In this document: positions 18,585 to 39,485 of the stretch, piece by piece | How positions within the stretch are numbered: position 1 is the stretch's first letter | Layout: each line of letters begins with the position of its first letter | Origin: Candidatus Bathyarchaeota archaeon | Lineage (GTDB): Archaea; Thermoproteota; CALKCG01; B24 | Direction of reading: 5' to 3' | Assembly: GCA_018396755.1 (NCBI GenBank) | Contig: JAGTQM010000001.1 | Location: 62,001-126,000, forward strand | DNA: 64,000 nucleotides | Program-made: the position numbers and the translations under genes | Notes under the pieces: generated by a model | Databases searched by the model: none | Told to the model about the DNA's origin: nothing | Seen by the model: only the letters and a program-made list of their open reading frames with translations

Positions 18585-21251
18585 TTGTCATTAGTTTTTA
18601 ATGAGAAGAAGATGCCTTCTAAAACCCATACTCTTATGGATTTTCTAGCTAAGAAAACAAATGAAGGGAAAATAGCAGTGGAAGAAGAGCACGTTGAAGA
18701 GATACAACCTTCAAAAGTTAAAACTAGTAGAGGCGAGGAAGTGAAAGATATACCTCTAAGCTACTTAATATCAGCAACTTATGATGGAGAGAGGGGGGCC
18801 GTTTGCTTAAAACTATACAATGAAACTGAGCAAAAAATATACCTATGGTATGATAATACGGACTACAAACCCTATTGTTTAAGCGATTTGCCACCTGAAG
18901 AAGTGAAAGAGGTCCCCGGAATTATAAATCATCCTGGATTTCAACGGTTGGAAATTGTCGAAAAATATGATTCATTGAATTACAGGGGAAAACTGATGAC
19001 TAAGATAGTGGCTAAAGACCCGCTTTCTATAGGTGGGAGGATTGGAAATTCCATAAGAGATATTCTCCCTAAGGCTTGGGAGGCTGATATAAAGTTTCAT
19101 GAAAACTACGTTTTTGACAGAAGATTAAAAGTTGGCATGCCATATAAAGTTGAAGATAGCAAGCTTATACCAGTTGAATACGAGCTTCCGGATGAAGTAC
19201 TGAGAATAATTAAAAGTATTTTTAAAGACGAGCCTGAAGAGTATGTGGAATACGTTATTAGATGGCTTAGTTTATTGGAGCTCAAAGTCCCGAAGATATC
19301 TAGATTAGCAGTAGACATAGAGGTTGCAGGTGAAGTGATTACAAGGGTTCCGAATCCTAAGGAGGCAAAAGATCCAATTGTTGCTGTTTCTCTAATAGGG
19401 TCTGATGGATTACGTAAAGTCATATTATTGAAGAGGAAGGGAGTGGAGGAAGGAGTGGAAGATGTCGATGCTGAAATTGAATATTTTGATAGCGAAAAAG
19501 AGCTTATACTGAAGGTTTTCAATTATCTGGAGAAATATCCTTTCATCTTAACATTTAATGGTGATGACTTCGACCTACCATATCTCTATTACAGAGCAAG
19601 GAGGCTTGGTGTAGAAGTGGATAAGATACCTATAGAACGTGGTAGAGATTCCACCTTGATAAAAAATGGAGTACACATAGACCTTTACAAGTTTTTCTTC
19701 AACAAGTCTATACAGGTTTACGCTTTCGGTCAGAAATACCGTGAAAATACGCTCGACGAAATAGGTGACGCCTTACTTGGAATGGGAAAGGTAGATATTG
19801 AAATACCTATTAGCGAGCTTACATACATGGAGCTTGCCAAATATTGTCTTAGGGATTCTGAGATAGTCTACGGATTAACATCGATGAACAATGATTTAGT
19901 CATGAAGCTTATACTTGTTCTCGCAAGGATAACCTCTACTCCAGTTGAAGATTTAACTAGACAAGGCATATCAAACTGGATAAGGAATATGATGCTTTAT
20001 GAACACCGCGTACGAGGATGGCTAATACCTAGAAAGGAAGACCTCTTAGCGATAAAAGGTAAGATCACGACGAAAGCCATTATAGAAGGGAAGAAGTATA
20101 GAGGTGGAGAAGTTATAACACCTAAACCAGGTGTTCACTTCAACGTAGCGGTTTTAGACTTTCAATCCATGTATCCCTCCATAGTTAGACAGTACAATAT
20201 AAGCTATGAAACGTTGAATTGCAACCATCAAGAGTGTAGATCCAACATCGTTCCTGGAACAACTCACTGGATTTGCACGAAGGATAGGGGATTGACAAGC
20301 CTACTTATAGGCTCTCTTAAGGATGTTAGAGTTAAATGGTATAAACCCAGGTCAAAAGATAAAAGCCTATCCTCCGAAGTTAGAGAATGGTATAACGTTG
20401 TTCAAAGCAGTCTAAAGGTTATTTTAAATGCCTCTTATGGAGTGTTTGGAGCTGAGAACTTTGCACTCTATTGTCCAACAGTTGCAGAGGCAATAACATC
20501 TATAGGGAGATATGTTATAACAAGAACGGTTGAAAAAGCAGAATCTCTAGGAGTTGAAGTGATATATGGCGATACGGATTCACTATTCTTAAAGTCTCCG
20601 ACAAAGAGCCAGATTGAAGCGCTTATGAACTGGGCTGAAAAAGAGCTTGGCATGGAGCTTGACATAGACAGAATCTACAGATACGTTGTGTTAAGCTCTA
20701 GAAAAAAGAACTATCTTGGTGTTTACCAAGATGGCACAGTAGATGTTAAAGGATTAACTGGCAAAAAACGCCACATTCCAGATTTCATTAAAGACGCATT
20801 CATGGAGATGATGAAGATTCTCGGCTCCGTTAACAGCTTTGAAGACTTTGAAAAAGCCAAGGAAAGCATAATAGAGCTTTACAAAGAAAGCTACAATAGG
20901 ATAAAACGTGGAAATGTACCGATAGATAAACTTGCATTTAAAGTCATGCTTAGTAGATCCCCCGAGGGATATGTGAAAACGACGCCTCAACACGTTAAAG
21001 CCGCATTACTTTTAAAACAGAAAGGGATTGATGTAAGAGCAGGAGATATTATATCTTTCGTTAAAGTTGCAACAGACCCCGGTGTCAAACCGATACAACT
21101 CATAAGAAGCACAAGTGAGATAGATACAGACAAGTATATTGAGTATCTTGAAAGTACGTTTGAACAAGTTCTTGACGCTTTAGATATAGACCTCATAAGC
21201 ATGGCCGGTAGCAGATCACTATGGAGCTTTATGCCCTCGAAAAAGCAGTAG
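18585..21251 (+). CDS. polB: B-family DNA polymerase
   Basis: 888 residues with all proofreading and polymerase motifs. Exo I LAVDIEV (Asp244, Glu246), Exo II LTFNGDDFDLPY (about 322-333), Exo III YCLRDSEIVYG (about 420-430). Polymerase A LDFQSMYPSI (about 524-533), motif B KVILNASYGVFG (about 611-622), motif C YGDTDSLF (661-668, catalytic Asp663 and Asp665). These show an active polymerase with 3'-5' exonuclease. The start is TTG with AAGG just upstream; ATG 18612 is an alternative. Single gene, divergent from the m5C methylase. Confidence 0.93.
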   Translation: MSLVFNEKKMPSKTHTLMDFLAKKTNEGKIAVEEEHVEEIQPSKVKTSRGEEVKDIPLSYLISATYDGERGAVCLKLYNETEQKIYLWYDNTDYKPYCLSDLPPEEVKEVPGIINHPGFQRLEIVEKYDSLNYRGKLMTKIVAKDPLSIGGRIGNSIRDILPKAWEADIKFHENYVFDRRLKVGMPYKVEDSKLIPVEYELPDEVLRIIKSIFKDEPEEYVEYVIRWLSLLELKVPKISRLAVDIEVAGEVITRVPNPKEAKDPIVAVSLIGSDGLRKVILLKRKGVEEGVEDVDAEIEYFDSEKELILKVFNYLEKYPFILTFNGDDFDLPYLYYRARRLGVEVDKIPIERGRDSTLIKNGVHIDLYKFFFNKSIQVYAFGQKYRENTLDEIGDALLGMGKVDIEIPISELTYMELAKYCLRDSEIVYGLTSMNNDLVMKLILVLARITSTPVEDLTRQGISNWIRNMMLYEHRVRGWLIPRKEDLLAIKGKITTKAIIEGKKYRGGEVITPKPGVHFNVAVLDFQSMYPSIVRQYNISYETLNCNHQECRSNIVPGTTHWICTKDRGLTSLLIGSLKDVRVKWYKPRSKDKSLSSEVREWYNVVQSSLKVILNASYGVFGAENFALYCPTVAEAITSIGRYVITRTVEKAESLGVEVIYGDTDSLFLKSPTKSQIEALMNWAEKELGMELDIDRIYRYVVLSSRKKNYLGVYQDGTVDVKGLTGKKRHIPDFIKDAFMEMMKILGSVNSFEDFEKAKESIIELYKESYNRIKRGNVPIDKLAFKVMLSRSPEGYVKTTPQHVKAALLLKQKGIDVRAGDIISFVKVATDPGVKPIQLIRSTSEIDTDKYIEYLESTFEQVLDALDIDLISMAGSRSLWSFMPSKKQ

Positions 21252-28329: not shown

Positions 28330-28950
28330 GTGATTTTCATGTCTTACGGTATTCCTTCAGGAGAAGCTATTAGACGGCTTAGGAGAACCGTTGGATTAAC
28401 TCAGAAGGAACTTGCCAAAAGAGCAGGGTTAAGTCAGTCTCTAATTTCTAGAATTGAAAGGGGCGATGTGGACCCCCGTCTCTCAACGGTTAAAAGAATA
28501 ATGCATGTCATAGAGGAGTCGACCGTTAAAGAGTGGCAAGTGGCAAGTTACATAATGCATAGACCAGTGATATGTGTTAACGCTAAACAGCCTGTTGAGG
28601 TTGCCGTTAAACTTATGAAGAAGAATGATATTTCCCAACTTCCAGTTGTAGATGACAACAATACTCCCATTGGAGCAATTCAAGAGTCAACAATCATCCA
28701 TCATATGGTGAGAGAAAGAGACTTTAAGAGGCTTTTTAAAATGACCATCCGAGACATTATGGAGGGCCCTTTTCCGGAAATCGCTCCTAATACGCCTGTT
28801 CATGAAATACTTCAAATATTTTTGAAAGGAGCTCCAGCCGTTTTAGTTATTGAAAACAGTAAAATTCTTGGAATAATAGCTAAAATTGATCTAATAACGA
28901 CTTTTCTTAATGTGGAAGCGGGGAAAGTCTTGGAGCAGAATTTAAGCTAG
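28330..28950 (+). CDS. HTH-CBS transcriptional regulator
   Basis: 206 residues. N-terminal XRE-type helix-turn-helix (about 10-60: RRLRRTVGLTQKELAKRAGL in part) followed by two CBS domains (about 70-125, IMHRPVICVNAKQPVEVAVK; 135-190, IMEGPFPEIAPNTPVHEI). The CBS pair usually binds adenine nucleotides or SAM, so this is a metabolite-sensing DNA-binding protein. The ATG at 28339 (MSYGIPSGEAI) is likely the true start. It overlaps the convergent HTH gene by 4 bases. Its neighbour on that side abuts the putative origin. Confidence 0.85.
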   Translation: MIFMSYGIPSGEAIRRLRRTVGLTQKELAKRAGLSQSLISRIERGDVDPRLSTVKRIMHVIEESTVKEWQVASYIMHRPVICVNAKQPVEVAVKLMKKNDISQLPVVDDNNTPIGAIQESTIIHHMVRERDFKRLFKMTIRDIMEGPFPEIAPNTPVHEILQIFLKGAPAVLVIENSKILGIIAKIDLITTFLNVEAGKVLEQNLS

Positions 28951-29357
28951 GTAGAATCTGAAACACGGGACAGACTCATCTTGTTAAGCTTGTAATTCCG
29001 CATAGCCCGAGAACCAGATCTTAAGAGGAGACCACTATTGTGAAGCCTTTGAAGATAAGTGGAGATTGTGCTTAGTCTTATCTGTTCATTATAAACTAAT
29101 TCATATTCTGCTTGAACATCCCTAGATGAAAACCAACCTACTGCAAGCTTATCCATTATTATTTTCTTAATTCTTTCAAGTTTAGTAGAGGATTCAGATT
29201 CATCATTATGCTGCTTACCGTTAGATAATCCTCCCATAAGTTCTACGAGGTCCAATATTTGGAGGATCTTATTCCTAGATATAGCTCCTTCTAAAGTTAT
29301 GGTCAATTTTCCGCCGGATTCATCCTCAGCTTCAAACTTTAGCTTTGACCTAGGCAT
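28947..29357 (-). CDS. Winged-helix protein beside the origin
   Basis: 136 residues. The C-terminal about 75 residues form a winged helix (ERIKKIIMDKL, WFSSRDVQAEYELVYNEQ, STISTYLQRLHNSGLLLRSG), very likely DNA-binding. The N-terminal about 40 residues are acidic and low in structure (FEAEDESGGKLTITLEGA). I do not know the family name. Its start lies next to the candidate origin, with its promoter inside it. Role in origin control is only a positional inference. Confidence 0.6.
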   Translation of the reverse strand: MPRSKLKFEAEDESGGKLTITLEGAISRNKILQILDLVELMGGLSNGKQHNDESESSTKLERIKKIIMDKLAVGWFSSRDVQAEYELVYNEQIRLSTISTYLQRLHNSGLLLRSGSRAMRNYKLNKMSLSRVSDST

Positions 29358-29532
29358 CTGTTAATAGATTCACAAGATAAGAGTAAAAAAGTTACTGGAG
29401 AAACTGTGAAAAGAAAAGCTAAAAATCATAGTTATTTTTAGAAAAAGATTGCAGTTTTCAAATTTTCTTCTTCTACAGATTCACAAAAGAGGAGATTTAA
29501 TAAAAGAGATTTCTAGGACCTTTCTTCAAAAA

Positions 29533-29552
29533 CTCCAGTAGAAAAGAGGGGG
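29533..29552 (+). promoter_or_regulatory. ORB-like site with G-tail
   Basis: CTCCAGTAGAAAAGAGGGGG, resembling the archaeal origin recognition box: CTCCAGT core, A-rich middle and G-string. The best of the ORB candidates in the interval, about 440 bases upstream of the Orc1 start. Confidence 0.5.
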
Positions 29553-29700
29553 TTCCTCATTCACAGTAAAAGTGAATGTTTAAAGAATGAGAATAGCTAA
29601 ATTTTAACAAGAAAAGGTTCATTTTTCTTATGGAGTTAACTTGAGAATGAAAATGTGAAATATATAAGCTATTTACACGGCAACCTCAGACCCCTAGATT

Positions 29701-29722
29701 TCAACTGGAACAGGAGGAGGGG
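29701..29722 (+). promoter_or_regulatory. ORB-like site 2
   Basis: An ACTGGAAC half-palindrome followed by a GGAGGAGGGG tail, beside the AT-rich block that starts at about 29725. Same orientation as the site at 29533. Confidence 0.4.
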
Positions 29723-29724
29723 AA

Positions 29725-29850
29725 AAGGTATTAAAAATTCTTCTAATAATATAGAAATTTTAGAAAAATTCTCCCCCAGTTTTATTACCAAAATTTAAAT
29801 ATAAATTTTTCAGTTTAACTATTTTAACAAATAAGTTTACATAATATTCA
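29725..29850. other. Putative DNA-unwinding element
   Basis: An exceptionally AT-rich block (long runs such as AAATTTAAATATAAATTTTT) lying between the ORB-like sites and orc1. A C-run at about 29772 interrupts it. Inferred unwinding element of the origin. Confidence 0.45.
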
Positions 29851-29994
29851 CAGTTTTTCTCACGTTGTGAAGCAAGTTTGGAGGAGAAATATTAGGGGGA
29901 GGGTGGTTGTTTAATTAAAGAAACTTGAAGATACATTTTCCTCTACTAATAAGTTTTTATCATTATTCTCTCCAGTAAAATTTCAGGTGGAAAT

Positions 29995-31224
29995 CTGGAG
30001 AACTCTCCCCTCTCCAATATCTTTGACAGGTATATTGAGGGGTCTACAATTTTTAAAAATAGAGAATGTCTTAGACATGATTATGTTCCCGATTTTCTAC
30101 CCCATAGGGAAGATCAAATAGCAAGACTTGGGTTAATCCTTGCACCAACACTTAAGGGAAGCAGATGTTCAAACATATTTATCTATGGAAAACCTGGCAC
30201 CGGTAAAACAGCTGTAGCTAGATATGTTCTTAAACATCTTTCAAAGAAAAGTGTTGAAATCGACAATCCATTAAAAATTTGTTATATAAACTGTAGGACT
30301 GACGGCTCAGACTATAGAATTTTAACACATTTATGTGAGAGCATTGGAGTTAATGTTCCCTTCACTGGTCTTTCAACAAGCGAAGTCTTCAAACGATTTA
30401 AGAATGGGTTAAAGACGCTTGGGGCTATACTCATAATAGTCCTCGATGAAGTCGATATTTTAGTTAAAAACTATGGAGATGAATTACTTTACAAACTCAC
30501 GAGGATAAATGAAGAATCTGAGTATGGCAAACTTGTGATAATAGGTATATCCAACGACCTTCAATTTAAAGACTACTTAGACCCCAGGGTTTTAAGCTGT
30601 TTAAGTGAAGAAGAACTTGTCTTTAGACCCTATACCGCTGACGAACTTTACGATATCCTACAAGATAGAGCTAAACTTGCACTTAAACCCAATACTTATA
30701 CTGAAGCTGCTTTAAGACTTTGCGCGGCTTTAGCTGCGTCCGAGCATGGAGATGCTAGAAGAGCTTTAGACCTTTTAAGAGTTTCAACTGAAATAGCTGA
30801 AAGAGAAGGAGCAAACAGTGTTCTTGAAGATCACGTTAGAACCGCTCAAAGTAAAATCGAGGAGGATAGAGTGCTTGAAGTTTTAAAAACGCTTCCGCTC
30901 CATTCTAAACTTCTCCTATCGAGTATTTTTCTTTTGAAAAAACGTGAGTTGGGGAATCGTATGATGACAGGTACAATATATGAGATTTACACGGAACTTT
31001 GCTCTGAGATTGGTTTAGAGCCTTTAACACAGAGAAGGGTAAGCGGATTGCTAGCTGAGCTTGATGCATTAGGAATAATAAATGCTAAAGTTGTGAGTCT
31101 TGGACGGCATGGGCGCTCTAAACAAATAAAGCTTAATATACCGCTAAAGACTGTGAGATCCTTCTTGACTGGGGATACAAGATTAACTTTTGTCTTAGAG
31201 TATTCTCCTAGGTCTCTAATTTAA
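29995..31224 (+). CDS. orc1: Orc1/Cdc6 origin-binding initiator, CTG start
   Basis: 409 residues. AAA+ ATPase: FIYGKPGTGKTAVARYV (Walker A, about 62-78), VLDEVDILV (Walker B), GISNDLQFKDYLDPRV (sensor 1 region), DARRALDLLR (sensor 2), then the C-terminal winged helix (about 300-400). The N-terminal EGSTIFKNRECLRHDYVP matches the usual Orc1 start. The frame contains no ATG, GTG or TTG between a TAA at about 29949 and GTG 30535, yet homology begins at about 30004. CTG 29995 has a GGTGG Shine-Dalgarno 5 bases upstream and a TATA-like TTTTTATC about 40 bases upstream, so I take it as the start. The gene faces away from the candidate origin. Confidence 0.85.
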   Translation: MENSPLSNIFDRYIEGSTIFKNRECLRHDYVPDFLPHREDQIARLGLILAPTLKGSRCSNIFIYGKPGTGKTAVARYVLKHLSKKSVEIDNPLKICYINCRTDGSDYRILTHLCESIGVNVPFTGLSTSEVFKRFKNGLKTLGAILIIVLDEVDILVKNYGDELLYKLTRINEESEYGKLVIIGISNDLQFKDYLDPRVLSCLSEEELVFRPYTADELYDILQDRAKLALKPNTYTEAALRLCAALAASEHGDARRALDLLRVSTEIAEREGANSVLEDHVRTAQSKIEEDRVLEVLKTLPLHSKLLLSSIFLLKKRELGNRMMTGTIYEIYTELCSEIGLEPLTQRRVSGLLAELDALGIINAKVVSLGRHGRSKQIKLNIPLKTVRSFLTGDTRLTFVLEYSPRSLI

Positions 31225-31272: not shown

Positions 31273-31827
31273 TTGTATAGGAAAGCCCTAGCAATAGAAG
31301 ATGGATGTTTTACTGTTGAAAAACGTTTGTTAGATGAAGCTATCCTCATAGGTGTTGTTATGGATGGCTTCACACTGAAAGATATTTTCATAGATACGGT
31401 TAAAGTCGATGGGCTAGACGCCACCGATAAAGCCTTAACATTCATATCGGAGGCAGACATATTAGACCTAATTCTTCTTCATGGAGTGCCGTATGCAGGT
31501 TTCAACCTAATAGACGCACGTAGGATATATGAGAAGACGTCATATCCAGTCATATGTATACTTGACCGTAAGCCAGACATCCACCGTGTTGAGAGGGCTT
31601 TAAGGTTAAAGTTCTCAGATTGGCAAGAACGCCTCCAGATAATAAGGAAAAGTACCCCAGTGGAGCTCTCTCTAGGTTGCATAAAGCTTATCGTAGCGGT
31701 CCAAGGCTTAACTTTAGATGAAGCGTCTAAATTGTTAAGAGAGATTACGCTTCTAGGAAAATTACCAGAACCGTTAAGAGTTGCAAAGCTTATAGCTAAA
31801 GGGCTTCCGCCCTTGCTTCTAAGTTAG
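31273..31827 (+). CDS. DUF99 family protein (endonuclease dU-like)
   Basis: 184 residues of the DUF99/UPF0215 family: KALAIEDGCF, the GVVMDGFTLKDIFIDTVKVDG core, LLHGVPYAGFNLIDARRIYE and SYPVICILDRKPD. Members have an RNase H-like EndoV-related fold and at least one has been reported to cut deoxyuridine-containing DNA. TTG start (MYRKALAIED). It follows orc1 by 48 bases, suggesting cotranscription, and overlaps the convergent PolD small-subunit gene by 32 bases. Confidence 0.8.
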   Translation: MYRKALAIEDGCFTVEKRLLDEAILIGVVMDGFTLKDIFIDTVKVDGLDATDKALTFISEADILDLILLHGVPYAGFNLIDARRIYEKTSYPVICILDRKPDIHRVERALRLKFSDWQERLQIIRKSTPVELSLGCIKLIVAVQGLTLDEASKLLREITLLGKLPEPLRVAKLIAKGLPPLLLS

Positions 31828-33313
31828 CTTCTCTAAAATCGATGTAGATTACTTGGAGAGTTTTTAAATTTACAATTGGGACAATACCGGGTAATGGTTT
31901 TAGACCATTTCTCTTCTGGTACTCCGTTTGATTCTGCCAAGCACCAGAGTTCACGATTAAACTATTTCTGTAAAATCTATGTCTGGCAACATGAATGTGT
32001 CCTGAGTGAAAAATGGTCGGTTCTCTTTCGATTACGAGATAGTCTTCTGCTTCAGGAGCTATCGCCGTTCTCAATCCATATATGGGTGTTAGATGTCTCG
32101 CTTTAAGTAGAATCTCCATGGCTTTATCTGGCTCTTGAAAGGTTAATCCAGGTACATATGCTATCACATCGTCTAAACTTCTACCGTGATGCATAAGTAC
32201 ATCTACACCATGTATGGATATCCAACATGGATTCCCAAGGATTCTGACATTATCTAAATCGTAAAGCGGTTCTGAATATTTCCTAAAAATCGCAGGTTGA
32301 GGAAGCGCCTGTCTAGAAGCATCGTGGTTTCCAGGTATAACTACTGTCTCTATGTGTTCTGGAATTTTAGCGAAATACTCTGCAATAAGCTTATACTGTT
32401 GCGTTAAGGAATCTACGGCAAGTTCTCTATCCTGACCTGGGTAGACTCCTACACCATCAACTAAATCTCCACATACTAGAAGATACTTAACTTTACCAGC
32501 CAATTCTCTAAATGGCTTAGATCCTTCTAAGCCATTTAACCACCTTAAAAATTTTTCAAAGCATTTTTCCATGAAAAGCTTACTTCCAATATGAATGTCT
32601 GATGTTAAGACAGCGTAAACTTCTTCATCACTTCTTCTAGGTTTATGATCTGGTACATCTGGAAATATAATGTCATCTGCTAAAACAACGTCCTTCGCTA
32701 CTTTAACGCCAGATACGCAGATAACTTGATCCTGCAAAACCATAAGTGCTTTCTCAATCAATTTTCTATCCGAATTTTCAGAAATTATGACGGTTATTGA
32801 AGATTCAAGGTCCTCAAGTTGAATTTTGAACCCTCTTCGCTTGATTTTCTCAGTTACCATCCCTATGAACTTTACATGGCTTTTCAAACTGGCTTTTAAC
32901 GCGTTGGATATCGTCGTACTGCCTCCAACGTCTATTCTTCTCCGCAGTATTTTCTCAAGTTTCTTAAACCTGCTTTTAAAATATCTGTAGAAGTCATCTA
33001 TACTGTTTCCACCGTGAATTTTATCCGTAGGGTCAAATAAAACCTCAAGTTTAGACTCTACTTCTCTAGCTGACATCTGCTTAACAGACACAGACGCCTC
33101 TACTTGTTCTCTTTTTATTCCACAATATTCCTCAACATCGTTAAGCGTTATGATGAACCCTCCCCTCTCCATAACTTTATCTAGAATCTCATTTATGACC
33201 GTATCTAGTACGCTTTGATCAAGTTTACTAAGCTTTTCTAAAGCTTTCGGCTCTATTTGTAAACCATGTGCTACAATCATTCGCACAATGTTTTTCAACC
33301 CTTCAGAATCCAT
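31796..33313 (-). CDS. polB2: DNA polymerase D small subunit (DP1)
   Basis: 505 residues. N-terminal helical region (about 1-120), OB-fold region, then a calcineurin-like phosphoesterase domain with SDIHIGS, CGDLVDGVGVYPGQD, VIPGNHDASRQ, MHHGRS and SGHIHVARH. These are the 3'-5' proofreading exonuclease metal ligands of archaeal DP1, all present. DP1 pairs with the large subunit DP2, which is not in this window. ATG at 33313. Its neighbourhood with Orc1 and PolB marks a replication gene cluster. Confidence 0.92.
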   Translation of the reverse strand: MDSEGLKNIVRMIVAHGLQIEPKALEKLSKLDQSVLDTVINEILDKVMERGGFIITLNDVEEYCGIKREQVEASVSVKQMSAREVESKLEVLFDPTDKIHGGNSIDDFYRYFKSRFKKLEKILRRRIDVGGSTTISNALKASLKSHVKFIGMVTEKIKRRGFKIQLEDLESSITVIISENSDRKLIEKALMVLQDQVICVSGVKVAKDVVLADDIIFPDVPDHKPRRSDEEVYAVLTSDIHIGSKLFMEKCFEKFLRWLNGLEGSKPFRELAGKVKYLLVCGDLVDGVGVYPGQDRELAVDSLTQQYKLIAEYFAKIPEHIETVVIPGNHDASRQALPQPAIFRKYSEPLYDLDNVRILGNPCWISIHGVDVLMHHGRSLDDVIAYVPGLTFQEPDKAMEILLKARHLTPIYGLRTAIAPEAEDYLVIEREPTIFHSGHIHVARHRFYRNSLIVNSGAWQNQTEYQKRNGLKPLPGIVPIVNLKTLQVIYIDFREANLEARAEAL

Positions 33314-36784: not shown

Positions 36785-36874
36785 GGGCCCGTCGTCTAGT
36801 ACGGATAGGACACCCGCCTGCGGAGAAAATGCGTAGAGAGCGGGAAGTCCCGGGTTCGAGTCCCGGCGGGCCCA
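36785..36874 (+). tRNA. tRNA-Arg (GCG) with 15-nt intron
   Basis: Acceptor GGGCCCG/CGGGCCC, D arm, anticodon stem CCCGC/GCGGG (36813-36817 with 36840-36844), T arm CCGGG-TTCGAGT-CCCGG and discriminator A at 36874. The anticodon loop is CUGCGGA after removing a 15-base intron at 36824-36838 between positions 37 and 38. The precursor forms a BHB: CUGC pairs with GUAG, with bulges GGA and AGA cut after the second base. The anticodon GCG reads CGC and CGU. CCA is not encoded. Confidence 0.92.
36824..36838 (+). other. tRNA-Arg intron (BHB)
   Basis: AGAAAATGCGTAGAG, the canonical 37/38 intron position, excised by the splicing endonuclease at the two 3-base bulges described for the tRNA. It gives a local control for the EF-2 intron, which has the same cut geometry. 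Confidence 0.85.
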
Positions 36875-39364: not shown

Positions 39365-39485
39365 GGTTGCCAGCATCTCCCTCCTCTCCTAGGGTCTCCC
39401 ACTAGGGAGGGGAGAGACGTAGTGTGGTTTGACTTCCGTGTTCGGAATGGGAACGGGTCGGACCCACACCCTATGGCCGGCAACC
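39365..39485 (-). rRNA. rrf: 5S ribosomal RNA
   Basis: On the minus strand, GGTTGCCGGCCATAGGGTGT opens the molecule, with the conserved CCGTTCCCATTCCGAACACG loop in the middle and a closing TGCTGGCAACC that pairs with the 5' end. Length 121 bases. A TATA box sits 22-31 bases upstream. No 16S, 23S or tRNA is adjacent, so it is a free-standing gene. Confidence 0.95.

Follow-up and report, generated by a model that had tools for sequence, protein, structure and literature searches.

The 637-bp non-coding gap in front of an orc1/cdc6 gene in an uncultured archaeon raises two questions: whether this gap is a replication origin and, if so, which proteins recognize its conserved sequence elements. 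The window, that is, the whole stretch of 64,000 nucleotides that was analysed (G000:C30:62001-126000), belongs to a 175-kb contig of a Bathyarchaeota-type metagenome-assembled genome that consists of 74 contigs, totals 2 Mb (1.98 Mb searched) and is 89% complete; the nearest named relative by Orc1 is Candidatus Bathyarchaeota archaeon B24 (81% identity). The non-coding gap that the earlier note had described (29358-29994; 29% GC) contains no long ORF; it is flanked by a minus-strand ORF and by orc1, and its ORB and TTCACA content is that of a predicted oriC1-type origin. The DP1 gene reported to lie nearby was found at 31796-33313 on the minus strand (PolD small subunit; Pfam DNA_pol_E_B, 3e-18), and a long ORF at 18585-21251 was labelled PolB in the first reading of the letters. 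The surroundings also include a gene for a regulator with XRE-type HTH and CBS domains (28330-28950), two genes away from orc1, with an orthologue-like ORF at the matching place in L009 (4343-4927), and an endonuclease dU gene (Endo_dU, PF01949; 31273-31827) between orc1 and DP1. Farther downstream are a 90-base tRNA gene (36785-36874) with an Rfam match and no ARAGORN match, which possibly contains an intron, and a solitary minus-strand 5S rRNA gene (39365-39484; Rfam, 72 bits).

Comparisons were made with genomes of a "same phylum" set and with the family labels f1-f68 assigned in it. Among its members are single-contig genomes that have several orc1 genes each and are only 42-53% identical in Orc1; the set thus appears to reach well beyond the Bathyarchaeota-type group, and the labels are therefore kept as given.

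The initiator encoded next to the gap (29995-31224, plus strand; 409 aa if started at CTG 29995) is the only orc1 product found in the assembly. It passes the NCBIfam cut-off for ORC1-type replication proteins, and among solved structures it is closest to Sulfolobus Orc1-1 (2qby_A, Cdc6 homologue 1; 389 bits, compared with 190 bits for Orc1-3), so that by sequence similarity it is assigned to the Orc1-1/oriC1 type. The start codon is unusual. The ORF is open from 29953, and there is no in-frame ATG, GTG or TTG before 30535, a position beyond the Walker A motif. The CTG at 29995, preceded by AGGTG, aligns with a CTG in two genomes of the same family (G002 and G003) and with an ATG in a genome of the same order (G004). 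Both same-family genomes have an in-frame GTG three codons upstream of the CTG, and the GTG of the genome analysed here is one base out of frame. The CTG is likely to be used, the alternative being a one-base assembly error.

Two convergent ORB sites lie within the gap. ORB1 (CTCCAGTAGAAAAGAGGGGGT; 29533-29553, plus strand), which differs from TCCAGTNGAAANNNNNGGGG by one mismatch and is conserved in relatives, coincides with an ORB-like site placed previously at 29533-29552. The second site that had been proposed, on the plus strand at 29701-29722, has to be replaced: its G-tail is not kept in relatives, and the true ORB2 (TTCCAGTTGAAATCTAGGGGT; 29690-29710) is on the minus strand and faces ORB1. 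This site is conserved in same-family and same-order genomes, and its G-tail, which reads ACCCCT in plus-strand orientation, is retained in G002, G003 and G004. A third, weak site, ORB3 (CTCCAGTAAAATTTCAGGTGG; 29970-29990, plus strand), which the earlier note had not recognized as an ORB, occupies the same place in G002 and G003. It is located between the CTG start and a TATA-like element, TTTTTAT (29954-29960, plus strand), that is conserved in these two genomes and is tentatively assigned to orc1, and its G-tail overlaps the Shine-Dalgarno-like AGGTG, the ribosome-binding site of orc1. ORB motifs are not equally common elsewhere in the genome: with at most one mismatch, the pattern TCCAGTNGAAANNNNNGGGG is found at only three places in the 1.98-Mb assembly, two of them in the gap, and with at most two mismatches there are three occurrences in the window against 0.37 in shuffled sequence, and not one of the 100 shuffles gave as many as three.

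Other parts of the gap fare less uniformly. The three copies of CTCCAGTA in both orientations are indeed present, at 29393 (minus), 29533 (plus) and 29970 (plus), but the first is not conserved in relatives and is rejected as a functional part; on its own, this sequence occurs five times in the window against 1.9 expected, which is not significant. Likewise, the 7-bp inverted repeat CATTCAC/GTGAATG exists at 29558-29578, but its right arm is not conserved, and it is discarded as well. The AT-rich block is real, the most AT-rich of the 60-bp segments tested being 29783-29842 (87% AT). By analogy with the ORB3-DUE-ORB2 arrangement of Sulfolobus oriC1, the candidate unwinding region is the interval between the two ORBs (29554-29689; ~136 bp, 71% AT), which is bracketed by ORB1 on the plus strand and ORB2 on the minus strand.

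The motif comparison with relatives that had been suggested as a check places ORBs at matching positions upstream of orc1-1 orthologues in many families (f1, f2, f3, f4, f13, f24, f33 and others). The plus-strand ORB is located ~450-640 bp before the gene, in most cases followed by the minus-strand ORB 120-260 bp further on, and a third plus-strand ORB closer to the gene is frequent. The gap adjoins orc1, contains inverted ORBs with a G-string around AT-rich DNA and accompanies an Orc1-1-type initiator. With near-unique ORBs that recur upstream of orthologues, the match in position and parts to archaeal origins is borne out, and the gap is very probably a replication origin of the oriC1 type.

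In addition to the ORBs, the gap contains an array of the hexamer TTCACA that the earlier note had not mentioned, with seven copies against 0.42 expected, which makes the gap the densest 640-bp place for this motif in the 175-kb contig (next best, four). The region upstream of orc1-1 in G007 is likewise the densest place in a 332-kb contig (eight; next best, four). Across 43 families, each represented by one genome, TTCACA is the top hexamer upstream of orc1-1 (75 against 18.4 expected); among the relatives, with the genome analysed here excluded, it ranks second, only the ORB tail AGGGGT being above it. Upstream of 20 orc1 paralogues, TTCACA is not enriched (12 against 7.5).

The array sites follow a fixed spacing that becomes apparent when offsets are counted from the first T of TCCAGT in ORB1, with a tolerance of +/-2 bp, in the 22 genomes that could be anchored in this way. 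Recurrent offsets among relatives are -64(+), -54(+), +26(+), +99(+), +110(+) and +120(-). The most conserved site, at -54 (29480-29485, plus strand), is exact in 15 of the 22 genomes, from 11 families (0.5 expected). With one mismatch allowed, the sites at +26 (29560-29565, plus strand), +110 and +120 (29654-29659, minus strand) are found in 17 (~1.4 expected), 14 and 12 (~0.9 expected) genomes, respectively. The background conservation in this region is low, with a median column of only 0.21 bit. The genome analysed here has exact sites at -54, +26 and +120 and lacks the +110 partner, which in many genomes forms with +120 the inverted repeat TTCACA-N3-5-TGTGAA; the sites at -64 and -54 form a direct repeat with a separation of 9-10 bp. 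The remaining copies are located at -165 (29369-29374, plus strand; common to G002 and G003, and at -166 in G006), at -129 (29405-29410, minus strand; not seen in G002 or G003), at +313 (29847-29852, plus strand; G002 and G003 have one at +317) and at +332 (29866-29871, minus strand), the last two forming TTCACA-N13-TGTGAA. Across the anchored genomes, the offsets from ORB1 are fixed while the distance between ORB1 and orc1 differs by over 150 bp, and hence the TTCACA sites track ORB1. The combined pattern TTCACA-N46-50-TCCANTNGAA occurs once each, at the origin, in G000, G002, G003, G004 and G006, with no control matches; in the phylum as a whole, it is present in 83 of 397 genomes, concentrated in f4 and f24, the remainder including chance matches. 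TTCACA-N74-TTCACA alone gives one match in the genome analysed here against two control matches and is therefore rejected as a signature.

In some lineages, the motif itself has changed. Several array positions in f13 read TTAACA in place of TTCACA, and TTAACA is enriched at the origins of f6, f13 and f41, where it replaces or joins TTCACA. Five further f6 origins, examined after TTAACA had been seen in three, carry 8-12 copies each. Such a joint change at many sites of the same origin would be expected if one DNA-binding protein recognized them all. TTCACA is very probably a genuine functional element of the origin. In eight f6 genomes (including L235, L236, L237 and L238), strong TTAACA/GTTAAC arrays (78 against 6.9 expected) are located upstream of a more distant orc1-1, and a relative of the small protein gene discussed below is adjacent.

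The best candidate for a TTCACA-binding factor is the product of the divergent neighbour of orc1 (28947-29357, minus strand), a 136-aa protein with a winged-helix-like C-terminal region. This protein shows no meaningful match among Pfam, NCBIfam or PDB sequences, and a search of a 2026 PDB copy with its profile returned no convincing chain; the predicted structure is of low confidence (pLDDT 63) and gave no matches in a fold search. Its relatives show weak Pfam similarity to Penicillinase_R, MCM_C and Cdc6_C, which indicates only a winged helix. The gene adjoins orc1-1 in 16 families, in each of which TT(C/A)ACA reaches an observed-to-expected ratio of ~1.8 or above, and none of the tested families that are clearly array-positive is without it. 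Conversely, in nine families (f5, f14, f16, f17, f20, f23, f28, f31 and f39) the gene was not found, profile search included, and none of the nine has the array, the f20 genomes tested lacking both. The pattern is not uniform: f7, f25, f27, f32, f34, f38 and f56 encode the gene elsewhere and have no array, and enrichment of the array is weak in f8, f9 and f18. Array enrichment differs between gene-adjacent and gene-absent families (Mann-Whitney p 6e-5); under a strict per-family cut, the link with adjacency is not significant (p 0.27) and that with gene presence has p 0.04. The families share ancestry, so that these p-values overstate independence and the co-occurrence is a lead rather than proof. 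Because all clearly array-positive families have the gene and gene-absent ones have no array, the small protein is the leading candidate binder, and its role as the reader of the array appears somewhat more probable than not.

From the sites, their conservation, spacing and origin specificity, and the co-occurrence of the gene, we infer the following scheme of binding and function. Orc1 produced from the adjacent gene would bind the convergent sites ORB1 and ORB2, between which lies an AT-rich stretch of ~136 bp, and, as homology suggests, ORB-bound Orc1 would load the MCM helicase there. Orc1 bound to the weak ORB3, positioned between the TATA-like box and the start codon, could block transcription of its own gene and so limit its own expression. 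The ORB1-fixed TTCACA array would be bound by another sequence-specific factor, for which the winged-helix-like neighbour is the most likely candidate, and this factor would shape or regulate the origin complex. As a whole, this explanation, an oriC1-type origin with a TTCACA array bound by a second factor that is most likely the small neighbour, is favoured with slightly better than even confidence.

The principal alternative accepts the origin and assigns the array to another reader, for example, Orc1 itself acting on half-sites or a nucleoid protein similar to UBP. ORBs of other archaea do contain TTCAC, namely TT[TA]CACTTGAAAT in Methanobacteriaceae and TT[TC]CACC..GAAAC in Halobacteriaceae (PMC4164010), and UBP demonstrates that origins can require a second factor (PMC12141716). 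However, no remainder of an ORB is detectable in the flanks of the TTCACA sites. Furthermore, Orc1-1 is present in many families without the array, whereas the small protein is missing from the nine array-negative families listed above, and the shift of the array to TTAACA in f6, f13 and f41 also speaks against this alternative, which is possible but clearly less probable than recognition by the neighbour.

Paired winged-helix regulators often bind operators that resemble TTCACA-N-TGTGAA. Since the small protein gene is divergent from orc1, both promoters are within the gap, and the TTCACA sites might be operators through which the small protein regulates its own gene (and orc1) instead of origin elements. 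However, the offsets of the sites follow ORB1 rather than the gene starts. Moreover, the gene has been relocated in f11, f15 and f29; their origins still have the array, and only 0-1 sites are present in the 500 bp in front of the gene itself, contrary to what a simple operator would lead one to expect. This operator reading is not favoured and is considered very unlikely.

Compositional skew, which had been proposed as a check, is uninformative here. Neither GC nor TA or RY skew shows a usable inflection in the 175-kb contig, the 332-kb contig of G007 or the sampled complete genomes G052 and G021; the step at the gap is middling (rank 104 of 950 positions on the contig), and relatives with an orc1-1 orthologue likewise show no clear extreme. 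According to a 2026 study, gene orientation and translation contribute much to the skews of archaea, and replication contributes less than it does in bacteria (PMC12999951). The least likely alternative, that the gap is an ordinary promoter in which ORB-like sites regulate orc1 only and the active origin is elsewhere, could appeal to the missing skew extreme and to a precedent in T. kodakarensis, given that Thermococcus can replicate without its cdc6/origin (PMC5663688), but hardly accounts for convergent ORBs around AT-rich DNA ~300-460 bp from the start codon or for an ORB pair conserved across families despite the varying distance to the gene.

The predicted oriC1-type origin with its putative second factor can be compared with characterized systems. 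In Sulfolobus oriC1, an ORB3-DUE-ORB2 arrangement next to orc1-1 includes the ucm element bound by UBP (PMC12141716). The two origins share an Orc1-1-type initiator beside ORBs that bracket ~130 bp of AT-rich DNA, with an extra non-ORB motif inside; they differ in that the extra motif here is a multi-site array across the gap, whereas that of Sulfolobus is a single 11-bp element. The ucm/UBP pair is the nearest concept to the array and the small protein (PMC12141716). As in Pyrococcus oriC, the origin immediately precedes cdc6 and has DP1 in its vicinity (PMC2643942), but the ORB details differ, and no report of a TTCACA array in Pyrococcus was found in the literature consulted. ORB1 and ORB2 have the TCCAGT-GAAA core and the GGGGT tail of the common archaeal ORB motif of Ori-Finder 2, TCCA[CG]T[TG]GAAA[TC][GA]AAGGGGT (PMC4164010), but deviate from it in the spacer bases and, in ORB1, also in the base after TCCAGT. 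A search of literature containing few of the subscription journals yielded no spacing-locked TT(C/A)ACA array accompanied by a small protein, and no description of origins in this large uncultured archaeal group.

Altogether, the ORB/Orc1 origin type is already known, and the new part is the spacing-locked TTCACA array with its candidate reader. It is an evenly balanced proposition that the TT(C/A)ACA array, with its helical spacing and its fixed position relative to ORB1, is bound by a winged-helix protein that is new to the literature, is dedicated to origins and has its gene next to orc1-1 in Bathyarchaeota-type lineages and in some further ones of the phylum; archaeal origin recognition, or its control, would then include a second conserved component. 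The spacing-locked motif and its candidate reader make this putative origin-binding factor directly testable, and the array offers a strong sequence marker by which origins could be found in genomes whose GC skew is uninformative.
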